Shown here piece after piece: positions 8,201 through 38,285 of a DNA stretch of 46,107 nucleotides. A program made the translations under genes and the position numbers. This DNA comes from a virus: the IMG/VR virus record IMGVR_UViG_3300025168_000156, positions 1-46,107 of that record; one strand, written 5' to 3'. The notes under the pieces were generated by a model, which was given only the letters and a program-made list of their open reading frames with translations, was not told where the DNA came from and searched no databases. How positions within the stretch are numbered: the first letter of the stretch is position 1; every line of letters begins with the position of its first letter.

Positions 8201-8575
8201 TTAGGTTTTGCGTTTATGTCTAAAATGCTAAGAAATCCTACTGTTTTAAAAATTATGATGGCTAGTCGAAAACCTGGTGCAGATAAACTTGGACAATTAT
8301 TTCAAATTGCACAAACAACCGCAGCACAACTAGAGGCACAAGGTGCAAGGGGGTTAACTGAACAAACAGCAGAAGAAGTAAAACCTGTTACAGGAGAGGT
8401 TGCTAAACAATTGGCTCCACAAATAAGTCAAATGAAAACTGATTTAACTTCTCAAATAACGCCTCCATCTGCTGCATCAAGTGCTAGTGGTGTAAGTCCT
8501 TTAGGAACAAATCCAATTGTCAATCCTAACCCAGAAACACAAGCATTAGCACAAGCATTACAAGGAAGAAATTAA
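5288..8575 (+). CDS. very large internal/ejection virion protein with hydrophobic segments
   Basis: At 1095 residues this is the largest protein in the window. The N-terminal 150 residues are charged, with GDIIIETPQGNVQIEIEGDAP as a possible small beta domain. A Gly/Ala-rich hydrophobic region lies near residues 172-215 (IGAAIGASLMASGIGFIPGVALVGAAGFAGKAL) and a second near residues 945-985 (ALSLTLFGLVTAPLATIPTAL), with long helical, Lys/Glu-rich sequence between. Two membrane-active segments in a huge helical protein match ejection proteins that form a channel across the host envelope. The stop overlaps the endolysin start (TAATG). I see no transglycosylase motif. Confidence 0.6.
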   Translation: MGDIIIETPQGNVQIEIEGDAPNEKEKKAIMDKFFSQPSVQPKAQSLDLANASVEEIQDYARKKRLSGIDPLTNEQITDEEFERTYKEPGVDYSTGLDSIGSFSRFGFGRMDTDEERAGYLKEKVGEDGFRQDALGRFILTKKGRQTLGMGKGKELSIDEEGLSFNDIKDFAGATAAPIGAAIGASLMASGIGFIPGVALVGAAGFAGKALDEAVEYSQGLQKQSFGDVLRDSAFEGAFALAGEGVGRGISSFFGRLIKGPGGPENEALRAQARKLVNQGFRPTVAGATDESFRPILNRLQSIYEGVFPQKVAAQQNLKLALQELENVRGVNKQSIKDLNDSIMKDIDQAYANTNQKFEMAQKNISKDTESIVSKIMSKLKEDKNVPKNLADKLTLSKSVFDRDMDALYSGINRTLKGRRIVNTGPIIKALDELAETAPLDIKATKFYKDIKNLEGGKATVLEMNRIRTQLSQASYSPEVFGGATSNSLGRMKKVVEQSLRDAEVDLTRVAAEADAKAGFGQAIFPEKIPDLDSGTVSTSKAAERVGRTTRIFDESESFPTGDVGLSEEGLDLVNVQTALRNLRRANRLYGVGMGRFDKVVNENLLKEAKRGTLNPSYIFNEIITKDNPDALRQVLAAVRGLPTTMKKIDLQKGKAFIESQRIGTKTIDEALDEVKFLNPNDPARLSVERDVLKIQRNAEELAQVRGTGAEVAEDLRQNLGRMFLKEQLDKSKVIDKITGQEVFDGVKLANNLSSLGSTAKVLFKKELNEIDDVVQTLKRSNANLSDNTATALEGKPLFDSLKELKQATKAKEALEKDNLINSLQKSGGDPEKIAQVVFKTPESINVAKTNLTPQTFNAVQDAAMGKLLKDIGAAVDDVGRPRLTPDFEDAFKSGALGTKLKNVLTNYGDETINAMFGKGTSKTLSTLADDMVKVSNAATAGKGGLAAPTIALSLTLFGLVTAPLATIPTALGFAFMSKMLRNPTVLKIMMASRKPGADKLGQLFQIAQTTAAQLEAQGARGLTEQTAEEVKPVTGEVAKQLAPQISQMKTDLTSQITPPSAASSASGVSPLGTNPIVNPNPETQALAQALQGRN

Positions 8576-9024
8576 TGGATTTATCAAAACTAAAAGATCA
8601 ACTCATCATTGACGAGGGCGTAAAATATGAGACTTACCTCGATCACCTTTCGCTAAAGACGTGCGGCATAGGCCATTTGTGCAGAGAGGACGAGCCAGAG
8701 TATGATCTGGAGTTAGGTGCAGAAATATCCGAGGACAGAGTTACAGAACTCTTTGAACAAGATATACAAAGTGTTATTATAGATTGTAAAAAAGTTTATG
8801 ATAATTGGGATAACTTACCAGAAGAAGTAAAACAGATTGTAGCAAACATGATGTTTAACCTAGGCAGACCAAGATACAGCAAGTTTCGTAAACATATACA
8901 AGCTGTCATGGATGGTAGGTGGCAAGAAAGTGCCAACCAGATGCGTGATTCGAGGTGGCACAAGCAGGTGCCAAATCGGGCAGAGCGTTTATGTAAACGT
9001 ATGGAAGAAGTTACAGTTTCATAA
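8575..9024 (+). CDS. endolysin, T4-type lysozyme (GH24)
   Basis: The 149-residue protein has the GH24 layout: E14 in IIDEGVKYETYLD, D23 nine residues later, and T29 followed by CGIGHL, matching the Glu-Asp-Thr catalytic triad of phage T4 lysozyme. The C-terminal half contains NMMFNLG and DSRWHKQVPNRAERLCKRM, the usual helical lobe. It would cleave the glycan backbone of peptidoglycan at lysis. No signal peptide is visible, so it needs a holin (candidate at 36786). It closes the rightward virion operon and its last 14 bases overlap a convergent small gene. Confidence 0.93.
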   Translation: MDLSKLKDQLIIDEGVKYETYLDHLSLKTCGIGHLCREDEPEYDLELGAEISEDRVTELFEQDIQSVIIDCKKVYDNWDNLPEEVKQIVANMMFNLGRPRYSKFRKHIQAVMDGRWQESANQMRDSRWHKQVPNRAERLCKRMEEVTVS

Positions 9025-19005: not shown

Positions 19006-19216
19006 CATGTCCTCCATTTAATTTTCTTATATAAACAATTCGTCTTGCTTGACCTCCTGTAAGGTTAAAGTGTTCGGCTAAATCATCCATAGTAAACTTT
19101 CTATCAATGTTAACCTTTCTATGAACACCACCTTCTTTTTTGTATTTGATATCGTTTTTATGCTCATGCCAATACTGCTGAACCTCGTTTACAAAATCAT
19201 CATTGAATTTTGTCAT
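18989..19216 (-). CDS. conserved helix-turn-helix-like phage protein
   Basis: The 75-residue product contains EVQQYWHEHKNDIKYKKEGGVHRKV and FTMDDLAEHFNLTGGQARRIVYIRKL. The second block reads like a helix-turn-helix (DDLAEHFNLTGGQARRIV), so DNA binding is probable. The start overlaps the hydrolase stop by one base (TAATG), placing it in the same leftward transcript. I have an impression of similar small proteins in marine phages but no functional name. Confidence 0.7.
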   Translation of the reverse strand: MTKFNDDFVNEVQQYWHEHKNDIKYKKEGGVHRKVNIDRKFTMDDLAEHFNLTGGQARRIVYIRKLNGGHDGQTE

Positions 19217-19644
19217 TATTCCATCTCCCTTCTGTAGAATATGTGATCGTTGATACGAACTGTTTGTGTAAAATTATAACTCCAGGATGGGGTTACATAA
19301 TGTGCGTGGTAATGTGTTGAACCTTCGGTAAAATCTACAATATTTAAAGGTCCCTCAATTAAAGCATAAGCAATCTCTTCTGCCCATTCGTAAGCAGCGT
19401 GATCGGTTATGGTTTCGGGTTTGCCGTCACACCAGAAACTAAACTGACACATATTCGGGATCGGGGTTTCGGGATTCCAGGAATAATAATATCCTTCGGT
19501 AACAACTCCACAAACATTGTTGGGGTATCTAGGATCTGCAACTCTGGACATAATTACTTGCCCCACGGCTATCTGTCCAAGTGTTGGCTCACCTCTGGCT
19601 TCAAAGTATATTGCAGTTGCTAAACAAGCTAATGTAGAAATCAT
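19216..19644 (-). CDS. SleB-like cell wall hydrolase (Hydrolase_2 family)
   Basis: The 142-residue protein matches the SleB/Hydrolase_2 layout: LACLATAIYFEARGE with the presumed catalytic Glu at residue 15, GQIAVGQVIMSRV, CQFSFWCDGKPE, a THYHAHYVTPSW block and HIFYRREM. These enzymes cut peptidoglycan. No signal peptide is seen, so export or virion packaging is needed for it to act. It is read in the early leftward operon, far from the GH24 endolysin. A good ribosome site (AGGAGA) precedes the ATG. Confidence 0.88.
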   Translation of the reverse strand: MISTLACLATAIYFEARGEPTLGQIAVGQVIMSRVADPRYPNNVCGVVTEGYYYSWNPETPIPNMCQFSFWCDGKPETITDHAAYEWAEEIAYALIEGPLNIVDFTEGSTHYHAHYVTPSWSYNFTQTVRINDHIFYRREME

Positions 19645-31870: not shown

Positions 31871-34248
31871 TGGCAGAGATACCTATCGGACCTGGTGGTC
31901 CAGAGGAAGAAGCTCTTCCTCAAGTTGAAATGGAGATTGCGTCACCAGAAGAATTTGCAGGTGGCGTTGATATTACGGAAGATGGTAAAGGTGGTGCTAT
32001 CCTTGAAGCTTTGATGGGTGGCGAAGGTATGGAAGTCGAGACGGAAGTCTATGATCACAATGCTAATCTGGCAGAGGTTCTAGATGACGGCATCTTAGGT
32101 GAGATGTCCAGTGACCTTGTTGCACAGTATGAAGAAGACAATGATTCAAGATCCGAATGGCAGGAAGGATATGTCAAAGGTCTGGATTTATTAGGTGTTA
32201 AGTATGAAGAAAGAACACAGCCTTTTGCTGGTGCATCTGGTGTAACGCATCCGTTGATTGCAGAATCTGTAACCCAGTTCCAGGCACAATGCTACAAGGA
32301 ACTATTACCAGCAGGCGGTCCAGTAAAAACACAGATTTTAGGTTTGAAAGATGCAGAACGGGAAGAACAGGCAACCCGTGTAAAAGATTTTATGAACTAC
32401 CAGATTACAGAGGTGATGGAAGAGTTTGATCCAGACACCGATCAGATGTTGTTTTACCTGCCGTTATCTGGTTCGACTTTTAAGAAAGTTTATTATGATC
32501 CGTTAAAACAACGTGCAGTAGCTATGTTTGTACCAGCTGAAGATATGGTCATTCCATATTCAGCCTCGGACATTGCAACATCGAGTCGTGTAACGCATGT
32601 ACTGCGGATGGATGAAAACCAAATTAGAAAACTGCAAGTTGCTGGAGAGTATAAAGATATTGAATTATCTTCTTATGATGATTCAGATGATTCTGTTAAG
32701 GAAAAGATAAGAGAGCTTGATGGAACGGATAAGTCACACACAGATGATATTTACACAATCCTTGAAATGCATGTTGATTTAGACATTGAGGGATTTGAAG
32801 ATACGGATCAGATGGGTGAACCAACTGGAATTAAACTACCTTACATTGTTACACTAGATAAAGGTAGTGGAGAGGTTTTGTCCATAAGAAGAAATTATGC
32901 GGCACAAGATCCTGCGAAGAAAAAAGTACAATACTTCGTGCACTACAAATTTCTTCCAGGATTAGGGTTCTATGGATTTGGTCTTATACATATGATTGGA
33001 GGCTTGGGGAGAGCAGCCACGAGTATCTTGAGACAGTTAATTGATTCTGGAACTTTAGCGAACCTGCCTGCTGGTTTTAAAGCAAGAGGTTTGAGGATAC
33101 GAAATGATGATGAACCTCTCAGTCCCGGTGAGTTTAGGGACATTGATGCACCTGGTGGTGATATCAGAAATTCAATTATTCCTCTGCCATTTAAAGAACC
33201 ATCTGCAACTCTAGCACAACTCTTGGGGTCATTAATTGATGCTGGTCGGAGATTTGTTTCTATTGCTGACCAGCAGACAGGCCAAAATATGGGCAAAGAT
33301 ACGCCTGTTGGAACAACAGTCGCATTGTTAGAACGTGGCATGAAAGTTATGTCTGCTATTCATAAGCGATTGCATTATGCACAAAAGCAAGAGTTTAGGT
33401 TATTAGCTAGAATACTTGCAGAGAATCTTCCACCAGAATATCCGTATGATGTAAGTGGTGGAGACAGACAGATTAAACAATCAGATTTTGATGGACGTGT
33501 TGATGTTGTTCCCGTATCTGATCCAAACATATTTTCTATGGCACAAAGGGTGACTTTGGCACAGACTCAATTGCAGTTAGCACAATCAAATCCACAAGTT
33601 CACAATTTGTACCAGGCATATAGAAGAATGTATCTTGCCCTGGAAGTGCAGAATATCGATGAGGTTCTTCCCCCTCCACCAAAACCTCAACCGCTAGATC
33701 CCGCCATTGAAAACGCAAGAGCATTGATGGGTGAATTATTGCAATCATTTCCAGAGCAAGACCATGATTCACATGTCAGTATGCATGTTGCTTTTATGAG
33801 GTTGCCCGTTGTCCAAACTTCGCCACAAGTTTATGGTGTATTCATATCTCACATTATGGAACATATTTCATTAAAAGCACGAGCTATGGCACAACAAGAA
33901 CTACAACAAATGCAAATGCAAGGTATGCCTGTAGATCAATCTTCTATGGACATGAAAATATCACAGATAGAAATGCAATTGACGGAAGCTTTGCTTCCAA
34001 ATCTTATGCCTCAACAACAAGGCCCCGATCCTCTTGTAGCGATTAGACAACAAGAACTTGCGATTAAACAACAGCAAGAACAAAATAAAACACAGACAGA
34101 TGCAGCAAGAATTGATATCGAAAGACAGAGATTAGAGCAACAAGCTGTAACGGACTCTGCACGATTAGAGTTACAAGAAGATATTGCTGATGAAAGGAAT
34201 GAGGTAAACAGAGAGCGAATTGCCGCTCAATCTGCTAAGAGACAATGA
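31870..34248 (+). CDS. portal protein
   Basis: The 792-residue protein lies directly after terminase. Conserved features include WQEGYVKGLDLLGVKYEERTQPFAGASGVTHPLIAE near 95-130, FYLPLSGSTFKKVYYDP, GLIHMIGGLGRAATSILRQLIDSGTLANLPAGFKA, and TPVGTTVALLERGMKVMSAIHKRLHYAQKQEF, an order I know from portals of marine podoviruses. The C-terminal 100 residues are Gln/Glu-rich and coiled. It is a dodecameric DNA gate at one capsid vertex. It is longer than P22 portal. The end overlaps the next gene by ATGA. Confidence 0.92.
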   Translation: MAEIPIGPGGPEEEALPQVEMEIASPEEFAGGVDITEDGKGGAILEALMGGEGMEVETEVYDHNANLAEVLDDGILGEMSSDLVAQYEEDNDSRSEWQEGYVKGLDLLGVKYEERTQPFAGASGVTHPLIAESVTQFQAQCYKELLPAGGPVKTQILGLKDAEREEQATRVKDFMNYQITEVMEEFDPDTDQMLFYLPLSGSTFKKVYYDPLKQRAVAMFVPAEDMVIPYSASDIATSSRVTHVLRMDENQIRKLQVAGEYKDIELSSYDDSDDSVKEKIRELDGTDKSHTDDIYTILEMHVDLDIEGFEDTDQMGEPTGIKLPYIVTLDKGSGEVLSIRRNYAAQDPAKKKVQYFVHYKFLPGLGFYGFGLIHMIGGLGRAATSILRQLIDSGTLANLPAGFKARGLRIRNDDEPLSPGEFRDIDAPGGDIRNSIIPLPFKEPSATLAQLLGSLIDAGRRFVSIADQQTGQNMGKDTPVGTTVALLERGMKVMSAIHKRLHYAQKQEFRLLARILAENLPPEYPYDVSGGDRQIKQSDFDGRVDVVPVSDPNIFSMAQRVTLAQTQLQLAQSNPQVHNLYQAYRRMYLALEVQNIDEVLPPPPKPQPLDPAIENARALMGELLQSFPEQDHDSHVSMHVAFMRLPVVQTSPQVYGVFISHIMEHISLKARAMAQQELQQMQMQGMPVDQSSMDMKISQIEMQLTEALLPNLMPQQQGPDPLVAIRQQELAIKQQQEQNKTQTDAARIDIERQRLEQQAVTDSARLELQEDIADERNEVNRERIAAQSAKRQ

Positions 34249-34727
34249 TCGATCCAATCACATTAGGTGCAGCAGTCACTACAGCTACGACTTGCTACAA
34301 AACTTTTGTGTCTATGGTTCAAGCTGGTAAAGAACTTGAAGACTGCACAGCTACATTGGGTAAATGGATGGGTGCAGTCTCTGATATAGATAATATTCAC
34401 AAGAACTCTAACAACCCATCAACCTTTGATAAATTATTTAATGGCTCCGTCCAGGAAGTTGCAATGGAGAGTTTTGCAGCTAAAAAGAAAATACAAAAAC
34501 AACGTGAAGATCTTAAGAACTGGCTAGTTGGTCACTATGGCTTAATGGCATACGAAGATTTGTTGCGTGAGGAAGGTCGTATACGCAAAGCCAGGCAGGA
34601 AGCTATTTATGCTAAAGCAGAGCAACAACGTATGATACGAGACTATACTATCATAGGTATTTCTGTGTTGATTGGACTATCTGCTCTTGGATGGATGATC
34701 TGGCTCATCACAAAGAGTGTTGCGTAA
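34245..34727 (+). CDS. membrane protein with cytoplasmic helical region, 160 aa
   Basis: The 160-residue protein starts hydrophobic (MIDPITLGAAVTTATTCYKTFVSMVQAG), has a long charged helical middle (AAKKKIQKQREDLKNWLVGHYG, RIRKARQEAIYAKAEQQRMIRD) and one clear span near 135-157 (IIGISVLIGLSALGWMIWLI). It begins in an ATGA overlap with portal and ends in TAATG with the next gene. Position suggests a lysis- or envelope-related function; no name can be given. Confidence 0.65.
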   Translation: MIDPITLGAAVTTATTCYKTFVSMVQAGKELEDCTATLGKWMGAVSDIDNIHKNSNNPSTFDKLFNGSVQEVAMESFAAKKKIQKQREDLKNWLVGHYGLMAYEDLLREEGRIRKARQEAIYAKAEQQRMIRDYTIIGISVLIGLSALGWMIWLITKSVA

Positions 34728-35032
34728 TGCTTATGCTGTATAATTTTATTTATTATTTCTTAATCTTCTTTTGTATTATTTCTTTTCTGGCAATTGTTAC
34801 TTTTGCAAGAGACAAGGAGCATACAACGTGCAGATTAGCAAAACAAATGAGAACAGATAACCAACATATCTGTGTTTACGTTGGAGCAAATTATACACAG
34901 TATAATGAGTACATTGACATGAGTGCTGGTAATGTGCAATGTCCAAGAGAAATGCGATGTAAATATCGACCCAATGAAAAACCCTTTACGTTGAAAAACG
35001 TGGTTAAAAGTATAAAGGAAAGTTTCGAATGA
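34727..35032 (+). CDS. signal-anchored Cys-containing protein, 101 aa
   Basis: The ATG at 34727 overlaps the upstream stop (TAATG). The product has an N-terminal span (MLMLYNFIYYFLIFFCIISFLAIVTF) followed by a soluble domain with C36, C50 and CPREMRC near 77-83. It would be anchored with its Cys-rich domain outside the membrane, which is typical of spanin-like or disulfide-forming proteins. It ends in ATGA with the next gene. Function unknown; an outer part of the lysis system is possible. Confidence 0.6.
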   Translation: MLMLYNFIYYFLIFFCIISFLAIVTFARDKEHTTCRLAKQMRTDNQHICVYVGANYTQYNEYIDMSAGNVQCPREMRCKYRPNEKPFTLKNVVKSIKESFE

Positions 35033-35358
35033 GCAAAAAATTACAAAAAGGCAGTCAATACGAACAGTTTGATTTAGATGGTGACGGAATTGTAAGTGAC
35101 GAGGAGCTCTCACGATCTGAGCATATGATACGTCTTGAAAATTCTGATAAGATGCAAGACCAACAGAGGATGCTTTGTTGGGTGTCATCTATATCATCAA
35201 TCATTTTAATAGTTTTAGTTATGTCACCAGTAATACCAGATGCAAGAGTTGAGATGGTAACGGCTTTACTCTCAACGTATGTTGTTGCAAATTTAGGTAT
35301 CGTTGCAACATTTATGGGTGCGACTGCATTTACAAGGTCAAAAGAAAATGGTAAATGA
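35029..35358 (+). CDS. EF-hand plus two-span membrane protein
   Basis: Residues 14-27 read FDLDGDGIVSDEEL, a complete EF-hand loop with Asp at 15, 17 and 19, Gly 20, Val 22 and Glu 26. Two hydrophobic spans follow near 47-69 (CWVSSISSIILIVLVMSPV) and 75-101 (MVTALLSTYVVANLGIVATFMG). A calcium-sensing membrane protein is suggested, resembling a holin topology. It overlaps neighbours at both ends by four bases (ATGA). The holin role is a hypothesis. Confidence 0.75.
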   Translation: MSKKLQKGSQYEQFDLDGDGIVSDEELSRSEHMIRLENSDKMQDQQRMLCWVSSISSIILIVLVMSPVIPDARVEMVTALLSTYVVANLGIVATFMGATAFTRSKENGK

Positions 35359-35537
35359 TATGGGTTTTAATAGTAATTTTACATGGAACGGATATTCAAG
35401 AACGTGTTTTTTTCCAGGATCTTAATACATGTCTCTCCTTTGCCGAAAAAATACGGGCACAAAACACGCACCAGCAAACTGCGTTTTCCCAAGTTTATGT
35501 TACCACTTATTGCGTACCTCAAAAAGAAGGAGAATGA
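35355..35537 (+). CDS. small secreted-type protein, 60 aa
   Basis: The product opens with MIWVLIVILHGTDIQERVFFQ, a short hydrophobic leader, and has C26 and C53 at either side of a short domain. It starts in ATGA overlap with the EF-hand gene, so it is part of the same membrane cluster. It resembles the gene at 19744 in size and layout. Confidence 0.55.
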   Translation: MIWVLIVILHGTDIQERVFFQDLNTCLSFAEKIRAQNTHQQTAFSQVYVTTYCVPQKEGE

Positions 35538-36785: not shown

Positions 36786-37193
36786 ATGCTAGGACTAGGA
36801 AGTATAATAGGGCCTATAGGTTCATTAGCCAGTACGTGGTTACAAGGACGTGTTGATAAAGCTAAAGCAGAAACAGATGTTAAGGTAGCAAAAGCCAAAG
36901 CGGAAGCGAAAGTTTATGAGACTGAAGCAACATCTAGTTTTCTTAATGAGCAGGCTCTTACAAACCAGATGGGTGAATCTTGGAAGGACGAATTTTGGAG
37001 TCTAATTTTTGGGGCAATCCTTGTGGCTTCTTTCTTGCCTTGGACACAACCATTTGTTAAAGAAGGGTTTGTTTTCTTAGAACAATCGACCCCAAATTGG
37101 TTCGCCAACATGTTATATATAATAATAGGCAGCTCATTTGGATATCGCTTTGGTAAGCAAGGATTGCAAATGATAAATAAAAAGGGTAAATAA
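36786..37193 (+). CDS. 3TM-type holin (GTA_holin-like)
   Basis: The 135-residue protein begins with an amphipathic hydrophobic start (MLGLGSIIGPIGSLASTWLQG), a long charged helix (residues 22-50) and the conserved SWKDEFWSLIFGAILVASFLPW (65-86), then a second span near 106-122 (FANMLYIIIGSSFGYRF). This matches holins of the GTA_holin_3TM type. It would permeabilise the inner membrane for the endolysin. A GGAG ribosome site precedes it. A basic 37-residue gene follows by TAATG. Confidence 0.8.
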   Translation: MLGLGSIIGPIGSLASTWLQGRVDKAKAETDVKVAKAKAEAKVYETEATSSFLNEQALTNQMGESWKDEFWSLIFGAILVASFLPWTQPFVKEGFVFLEQSTPNWFANMLYIIIGSSFGYRFGKQGLQMINKKGK

Positions 37194-37645: not shown

Positions 37646-37858
37646 ATGGATGTTGCAGACTTCGCAAAACACGTATATAAGATGTTAGAAAGACGTGAGC
37701 AAGACATTGCTACGATCTTAACATCTGGTGGTATTCAAGATATCGAGAACTACCGACTTCTTGTGGGTGAGATACAAGGCTTAACCTACGCAAAGGAGGA
37801 AATGAAATCCTTGTTGGAGAAAAATTACGAAGATGCCCAAGACATTATTAGTACCTGA
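37646..37858 (+). CDS. conserved small phage protein, 70 aa
   Basis: The 70-residue helical product has DVADFAKHVYKMLERREQDIATILTSGG and YRLLVGEIQGLTYAKEEMKSLLEK, a pattern that recurs immediately upstream of GroES-like or capsid genes in marine phages. It overlaps the GroES-like gene by 26 bases. A structural or head-assembly role is inferred. Confidence 0.7.
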   Translation: MDVADFAKHVYKMLERREQDIATILTSGGIQDIENYRLLVGEIQGLTYAKEEMKSLLEKNYEDAQDIIST

Positions 37859-38285
37859 CCACATACTTCAAAAAAGAAATAAAGAAAAAGCTTATGTAAA
37901 AAAAGAAGAGAGGGTATTAGATCCTACGCTTCTTGATAAATCATTTAAAGAAAGATTACCTTCACCAACTGGCTGGAGAATCCTTGTAGCACCTTATCAA
38001 GGTAAAGAAGTTACTAATAAGGGTGTAATCATACCAGATCAGATAAGACAAAGAGAAGCATTAGCCACAGTTGTAGCTTATGTTTTGAAAGTTGGACCTA
38101 TTGCGTATAAAGATGAGGGTAAATTTGGAGATCTAAATAATCCTTGGTGCAAGGAAGGTGATTGGATTTGTATAGGTCGATATGCTGGATCCAGATTTTC
38201 TTTAGAAGATATGGAAGTTCGTATTATTAACGATGATGAAGTTATTGCTACGATTTTAGACCCAGAAGATATTAAACATATATAA
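37833..38285 (+). CDS. GroES-like co-chaperonin
   Basis: Residues 46-145 match the Cpn10 fold: PTGWRILVAPYQGKEVTNKGVIIPDQIRQREALATVVAYVLKVGP contains the first strands and a mobile loop at about 57-72 with the hydrophobic tripeptide V-I-I (GVIIP, 65-67), and KEGDWICIGRYAGSRF, VRIINDDEVIATI and LDPEDI complete the barrel. It is longer than GroES because of a 45-residue N-terminal extension. It probably pairs with host GroEL to fold a phage protein, most likely the capsid protein, as T4 gp31 does. It sits directly upstream of the scaffold and capsid genes. Confidence 0.85.
   Translation: MPKTLLVPDHILQKRNKEKAYVKKEERVLDPTLLDKSFKERLPSPTGWRILVAPYQGKEVTNKGVIIPDQIRQREALATVVAYVLKVGPIAYKDEGKFGDLNNPWCKEGDWICIGRYAGSRFSLEDMEVRIINDDEVIATILDPEDIKHI

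Follow-up and report, generated by a model that had tools for sequence, protein, structure and literature searches.

The locus and its neighbourhood

The DNA analysed here (the window) is an IMG/VR virus record of 46,107 bases and represents a marine podovirus-like phage. Between its portal and capsid genes lies an open reading frame whose product, denoted the EF protein in the following, combines a calcium-binding-type loop with two subsequent membrane spans. Its coordinates, the loop and the order of loop and spans agree with the original prediction, as judged by sequence, Kyte-Doolittle hydropathy and AlphaFold2. The gene is the middle member of a chain of reading frames that overlap by 4 nt each (34733-35032, 35029-35358 and 35355-35537). 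The features considered are:

8575-9024, plus strand: GH24 lysozyme, endolysin candidate
19216-19644, minus strand: SleB-type cell wall hydrolase (Hydrolase_2)
34245-34727, plus strand: 160-residue protein with a C-terminal membrane anchor (phrog_32327), a recurrent neighbour of the EF gene
34733-35032, plus strand: 99-residue protein with an N-terminal span, 4-nt overlap with the EF gene
35029-35358, plus strand: EF-hand two-span membrane protein of 109 residues, candidate holin or co-holin
35071-35106, plus strand: EF-hand loop D15-E26, DLDGDGIVSDEE, identified by sequence, conservation and profile match
35170-35226, plus strand: span 1, about residues 48-66 (Kyte-Doolittle), within a continuous AlphaFold2 helix 24-65
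35257-35313, plus strand: span 2, about residues 77-95 (Kyte-Doolittle), within AlphaFold2 helix 71-106, followed by a positively charged tail
35355-35537, plus strand: 60-residue protein after the EF gene, 4-nt overlap, recurrent neighbour
36786-37193, plus strand: phrog_2524 membrane protein related to DUF3154/GTA_holin_3TM, a rival holin

The EF gene is distant from both hydrolase genes and shares its block with the GTA-holin-related gene at 36786-37193, whose product (phrog_2524, annotated as function unknown) is a likely holin of this phage. The lysozyme of the window is 66-67% identical to its orthologues in two contigs (L071 and L100), in both of which the lysozyme gene and an EF gene share 4 nt. 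Identity to the EF protein of the window is 78% for the one of L071 and only about 31% for that of L100; two subfamilies therefore occur at the same place.

Several further observations concern this neighbourhood. The lysozyme-EF pair of L100 (5552-6306) resides on a 263-kb contig of a SAR116 single-cell genome, possibly as a prophage or an infection, and provides a clue to the host of the window. The SleB-type hydrolase (19216-19644) is located away from the structural genes, and a 'cell wall hydrolase' is also found among the early genes of the Roseobacter phages CRP-1 and CRP-345. A GroES-like co-chaperonin gene (37833-38285) is located just upstream of the scaffold and capsid genes. The anchored 160-residue neighbour (34245-34727 type) occurs in 16 cultured phage records, all labelled hypothetical; as an obligate partner of the EF protein it was rejected, given that CRP-2, CRP-603 and CRP-13 have the neighbour and no EF gene was found in the examined sequence. 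In one contig (L200, 6340-6915) a Lys-rich protein with a second EF- or dockerin-like motif, DKNKDGKISGSDF, is encoded beside the EF gene.

The EF-hand loop and its conservation

The loop D15-L-D17-G-D19-G20-I-V-S-D-E-E26 is canonical, with Asp at positions 1, 3 and 5, Gly at position 6, Val at position 8 and Glu at position 12. Its 12 residues are flanked by AlphaFold2 helices (residues 10-14 and from residue 24 onward), in line with the EF-hand pattern, and among all stop-to-stop reading frames of at least 60 codons in the window the motif is unique to this one. Residue-shuffled reading frames of the window gave values of 0.006 (strict motif) and 0.07 (relaxed motif), which, together with the conservation described below, rules out a chance occurrence. 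As a single sequence, the window protein reaches 19.2 bits against the Pfam model EF-hand_5, below the gathering cut-off of 25.9, because a lone short loop limits the score. A profile of the family, searched against PDB sequences, matches an amoebal calcium-binding protein and calmodulins with E values from 1e-8 to 8e-7, mostly over columns 9-32; the EF-hands of calmodulin are matched at about 5e-7. By profile, the loop is an EF-hand, with Ca2+ as its presumed ligand.

A lack of conservation of the loop residues in relatives, which would have refuted the original prediction, did not occur. Across 50 non-redundant representatives (<80% identity), the loop is the best-conserved element of the protein: D15 and E26 are invariant in 50 of 50, followed by D19 (98%), G20 (94%) and D17 (92%). 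In the wider set, 307 of 311 relatives have the loop in a relaxed form, and the strict form DxDxDGx[ILV]xxxE is found in 293, numbers to be read with the caveat that the loop formed part of some search patterns by which relatives were collected. In three of the four exceptions the contig ends ahead of the loop or within it, and the fourth (L063) has Tyr at position 5. Both synonymous codons are used at the Asp positions (for D15, GAT 182 and GAC 125) and at Glu26 (GAA 214, GAG 93), and the conservation therefore reflects purifying selection and not recent ancestry alone. With regard to the caveat, CRP-345, CRP-810, HTVC008M and phiM12 were reached via the membrane half alone, and all four still have the loop: DLNGNGTLDQDE in CRP-345 and DLNGNGKLDPEE in CRP-810, both found using the membrane half as query, and DLDGDGKIVEHE in phiM12, whose match spanned the membrane half only. 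At the level of sequence, the combination of an EF-hand with two spans is neither chance nor a one-off.

Further phages with this fusion, which the original prediction had proposed to look for, are plentiful. The numbers of IMG/VR relatives are at least 567, at least 595, 204 and 49, depending on the query, and cultured relatives include the Roseobacter phages CRP-1, CRP-9, CRP-207, CRP-345 and CRP-810, Limnohabitans phage DC31, the Methylophilales phages Melnitz, Pelagibacter phage HTVC008M, and Sinorhizobium phages such as phiM12. In every cultured relative the protein is labelled "hypothetical protein". The window protein matches PHROG 27150 (function unknown; E = 7.6e-7), as do 47 of 57 family members; PHROG 27150 is the same family and is listed without a role in calcium binding or lysis. 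No named holin model in Pfam, NCBIfam or PHROG is significantly matched by the window protein, and neither is GTA_holin_3TM by sequence. Phage_holin_3_6 is matched weakly by 8 of 57 members (best E = 1.4e-4) and a few members weakly match the two-span SLATT model; both could reflect the biased composition of membrane segments.

Membrane spans and predicted topology

The Kyte-Doolittle spans start at residues 48 and 77, giving the two transmembrane helices that the layout of class II holins requires. AlphaFold2, run with 57 sequences, predicts a helix at residues 10-14, the loop, and two long helices at residues 24-65 and 71-106 (mean pLDDT 82, pTM 0.52). In this model the exit helix passes from the EF-hand into span 1 without a break. 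The C-terminal tail is net positive in all 50 representatives and the loop between the spans is neutral or negative in all 50; by the positive-inside rule both ends are therefore predicted to be cytosolic. The predicted topology is thus N-in/C-in with the EF-hand facing the cytosol. Class II holins have two spans and both ends in the cytosol (PMC9636201). Foldseek found nothing significant for the model in PDB or BFVD, a result that is uninformative because the fold is a helical hairpin.

The conservation of the loop can be read in two ways. It is quite possible, at somewhat less than an even chance, that the EF-hand senses nothing and serves as a structural site for Mg2+ or Ca2+, stabilising the N-terminal fold or the pairing of the protein. 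Near-absolute conservation would suit such a site equally with a sensor, and a lone EF-hand would be an unusual sensor, since EF-hands usually come with a partner. Against a structural site stand the canonical Ca2+-type loop, whose position 12 is Glu throughout the family, and, in the predicted model, the continuity of exit helix and span 1, a layout suited to coupling. A structural site is compatible with a role in lysis; the likelihoods that we assign to the readings discussed here therefore overlap and do not sum to one.

Association with lysis genes

In several cultured phages the EF gene is part of a recognisable lysis cassette. In CRP-9 and CRP-1 it is followed by an M15 endolysin and by a protein built like a unimolecular spanin (u-spanin), its lipobox being N-terminal and its span C-terminal. 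No two-span hairpin other than the EF protein is encoded in the cassette of CRP-9. The order is EF gene, spanin2, endolysin in CRP-345, and EF gene, i-spanin-like gene, L-Ala-D-Glu peptidase in DC31. In CRP-810 the EF gene precedes a 'holin family protein' (GTA_holin_3TM by profile) and a GH108 lysin. Cassettes of EF gene, endolysin and spanin are thus found in CRP-1, CRP-9, CRP-345, DC31 and many contigs, and are absent from the window and from T4-like phages. In contigs, M15 or GH24 lysin genes are found immediately beside the EF gene, most of them sharing 1 or 4 nt with it.

The association was quantified for 35 non-redundant loci in which the EF gene is flanked by three or more genes on either side. 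An M15, GH24 or GH108 lysin is at most three genes away in 10 of these loci (25 are without), or in 11 if the GH19-like enzyme of contig L075 is included. Compared to an expectation of one lysin per 60 genes, the probability is about 0.002 for 10 and 0.0004 for 11 loci; compared to two lysins per genome it is about 0.07 for 11 loci, that is, the enrichment is marginal. Taken alone, this proximity statistic argues for a lysis role with moderate strength; more weight lies with the recurrent coupling to hydrolases of different families.

CRP-207 was initially a candidate for a further lysis cassette and was dropped, as the neighbour annotated as lysozyme is not a lysozyme by Pfam. This 'putative lysozyme' (L085, 3292-3873) has no Pfam match and the look of a membrane-anchored coiled coil, and is probably misannotated. 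In CRP-2 (L397, 1210-2116) and CRP-603 (L398, 1200-2069) the EF gene, the endolysin and the u-spanin are jointly missing from the site that they occupy in CRP-9, and a one-span protein is found there in both phages.

Exchange and co-occurrence with GTA_holin_3TM

Orthologous M15 endolysins are accompanied by one of two types of membrane protein. The EF gene is directly upstream or at most two genes away in CRP-1, CRP-9, CRP-345 and DC31, and a GTA_holin_3TM or phrog_2524 gene is found instead in CRP-823, ctQRb9 and CRP-13. By profile, no 3TM gene is present in the genomes of the first four phages, and no EF gene in CRP-13 (nearly complete) or in CRP-823 and ctQRb9 (cassette sequence only). Contigs follow the same pattern: where an EF gene is near an M15 lysin, a 3TM gene is located within six genes in only 1 of 71 loci. 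Both proteins hence take an equivalent place upstream of orthologous endolysins, although they differ in kind, GTA_holin_3TM (PF11351, formerly DUF3154) being unrelated in sequence, having three spans by family definition, and lacking an EF-hand. The 'holin-like' part of the original description is strengthened by the occurrence of the EF gene in lysis cassettes of cultured phages and by its use of the GTA_holin_3TM slot.

The situation differs for loci with GH24 or GH108 lysins, where a 3TM holin-type gene is located within six genes in 13 of 14 cases, and therefore the EF protein may not be the holin there. GTA_holin_3TM itself co-occurs with the EF protein in CRP-810, and a relative of it does so in the window. 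These loci suggest an alternative, in which hole formation falls to the GTA-type 3TM protein (in the window, 36786-37193) and the EF protein acts as antiholin or co-holin, joining the 3TM protein in the membrane and advancing or delaying its triggering, possibly by sensing ions. Besides the 13 loci, this alternative is in line with the gene order EF, GTA_holin_3TM, lysin in CRP-810, L075 and L090, and with known cassettes in which two holin-like proteins share control of timing (PMC13056207). As an account of the whole family it is rather unlikely, since CRP-1, CRP-9, CRP-345 and DC31, as well as 70 of the 71 M15 loci, have the EF gene and no 3TM gene, in the genome or nearby, respectively.

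A different position in T4-like phages

In T4-like phages (HTVC008M, Melnitz and phiM12) the EF gene is located between gp51 and the tape measure gene, in the order gp26, gp51, EF, tape measure, with no lysin nearby. This is no lysis position, and it keeps alive a role in assembly or entry, the latter of which the original prediction had also considered and for which no direct evidence was found. Instead of lysis, the EF protein might as a membrane protein serve the assembly of the tail or baseplate hub, DNA entry or superinfection exclusion, its proximity to lysis genes in small phages being due to the late-gene status of both. This would account for the fixed position and for the gp51/tape-measure context shared by five non-redundant loci, but is quite improbable, as there is no recurrent linkage to tail genes outside T4-like phages and the EF gene couples to three families of endolysins and exchanges with GTA_holin_3TM.

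Interpretation and relation to known systems

The EF protein is probably a holin or a partner of a holin, as judged from sequence and gene context. More specifically, we propose, tentatively and at a little under an even chance, that it is an inner-membrane protein of the lysis module with the layout of a class II holin, acting as the holin where it is paired with an M15 endolysin, and as holin or co-holin beside the GTA-type 3TM protein in the lineage of the window. In the window itself, a role as co-holin or regulator is about as likely as that of the holin.

Lysis timing could then depend on calcium. The N-terminal region of about 46 residues holds a single EF-hand whose exit helix is predicted to run into span 1. 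At low cytosolic Ca2+ the loop would be empty or hold Mg2+; the first membrane lesions would admit Ca2+, whose binding would order the loop. Loaded EF-hands of neighbouring subunits might then pair and thereby favour oligomers, driving the hairpins into a hole-forming assembly, with abrupt lysis as the result. A widespread family of phage holins gated by calcium in this way, in which a cytosolic EF-hand is joined to a hole-forming hairpin and the first leak of Ca2+ leads to all-or-none lysis, is unlikely. The original prediction had derived its calcium trigger from the abundance of calcium in sea water. This argument is weak, as the loop is predicted to be cytosolic and relatives infect freshwater Limnohabitans and soil Sinorhizobium. 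A Ca2+ gradient across the membrane also exists in fresh water and soil, and sea-water abundance is therefore not needed; DC31 and phiM12 as relatives are consistent with such a gradient.

Among known systems, class II holins (type S21 of phage 21; PMC9636201) share with the EF protein the small size, the two spans, the predicted N-in/C-in orientation, and, in several phages, the adjacent endolysin and spanin. Unlike them, the EF protein has a long N-terminal region with an EF-hand and matches no named holin family. The resemblance is one of layout; with its topology being a prediction, the EF protein is a candidate member of this class. LysF1a of the mycobacteriophages Girr and NBJ is likewise a two-span, N-in/C-in, holin-like protein from a cassette with a second holin-like protein, but consists of 80-88 residues, has no EF-hand and belongs to phages of a Gram-positive host (PMC13056207).

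An EF-hand holin was not found among open-access papers searched by title or abstract, which returned lysins and unrelated mentions only. Phage lysins with EF-hand-like calcium sites, described in some of these papers, do place an EF-hand in a phage lysis protein, but in a soluble enzyme and not in a membrane protein; a paper on MetSV, in which EF-hand and lysis terms both appear, deals with a host gene and was discarded as unrelated. Judged by these papers, an EF-hand on a holin-type membrane protein would be new, provided that the protein functions in lysis.

What sets the clock of holin-mediated lysis is a long-standing question, and an ion-binding site within a holin-like protein would provide a trigger at the molecular level, one accessible to tests by point mutation. 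The family is common, with at least 595 relatives for one query, yet unannotated, and it fills an empty holin position in several cultured phages. The annotation of lysis genes in aquatic phages would improve even if the role of calcium were merely structural. In CRP-823 (L401, 2001-2695) the labels seem to be shifted by one gene: the M15 peptidase is called hypothetical, and the name M15 metallopeptidase is given to the following reading frame of 68 residues.
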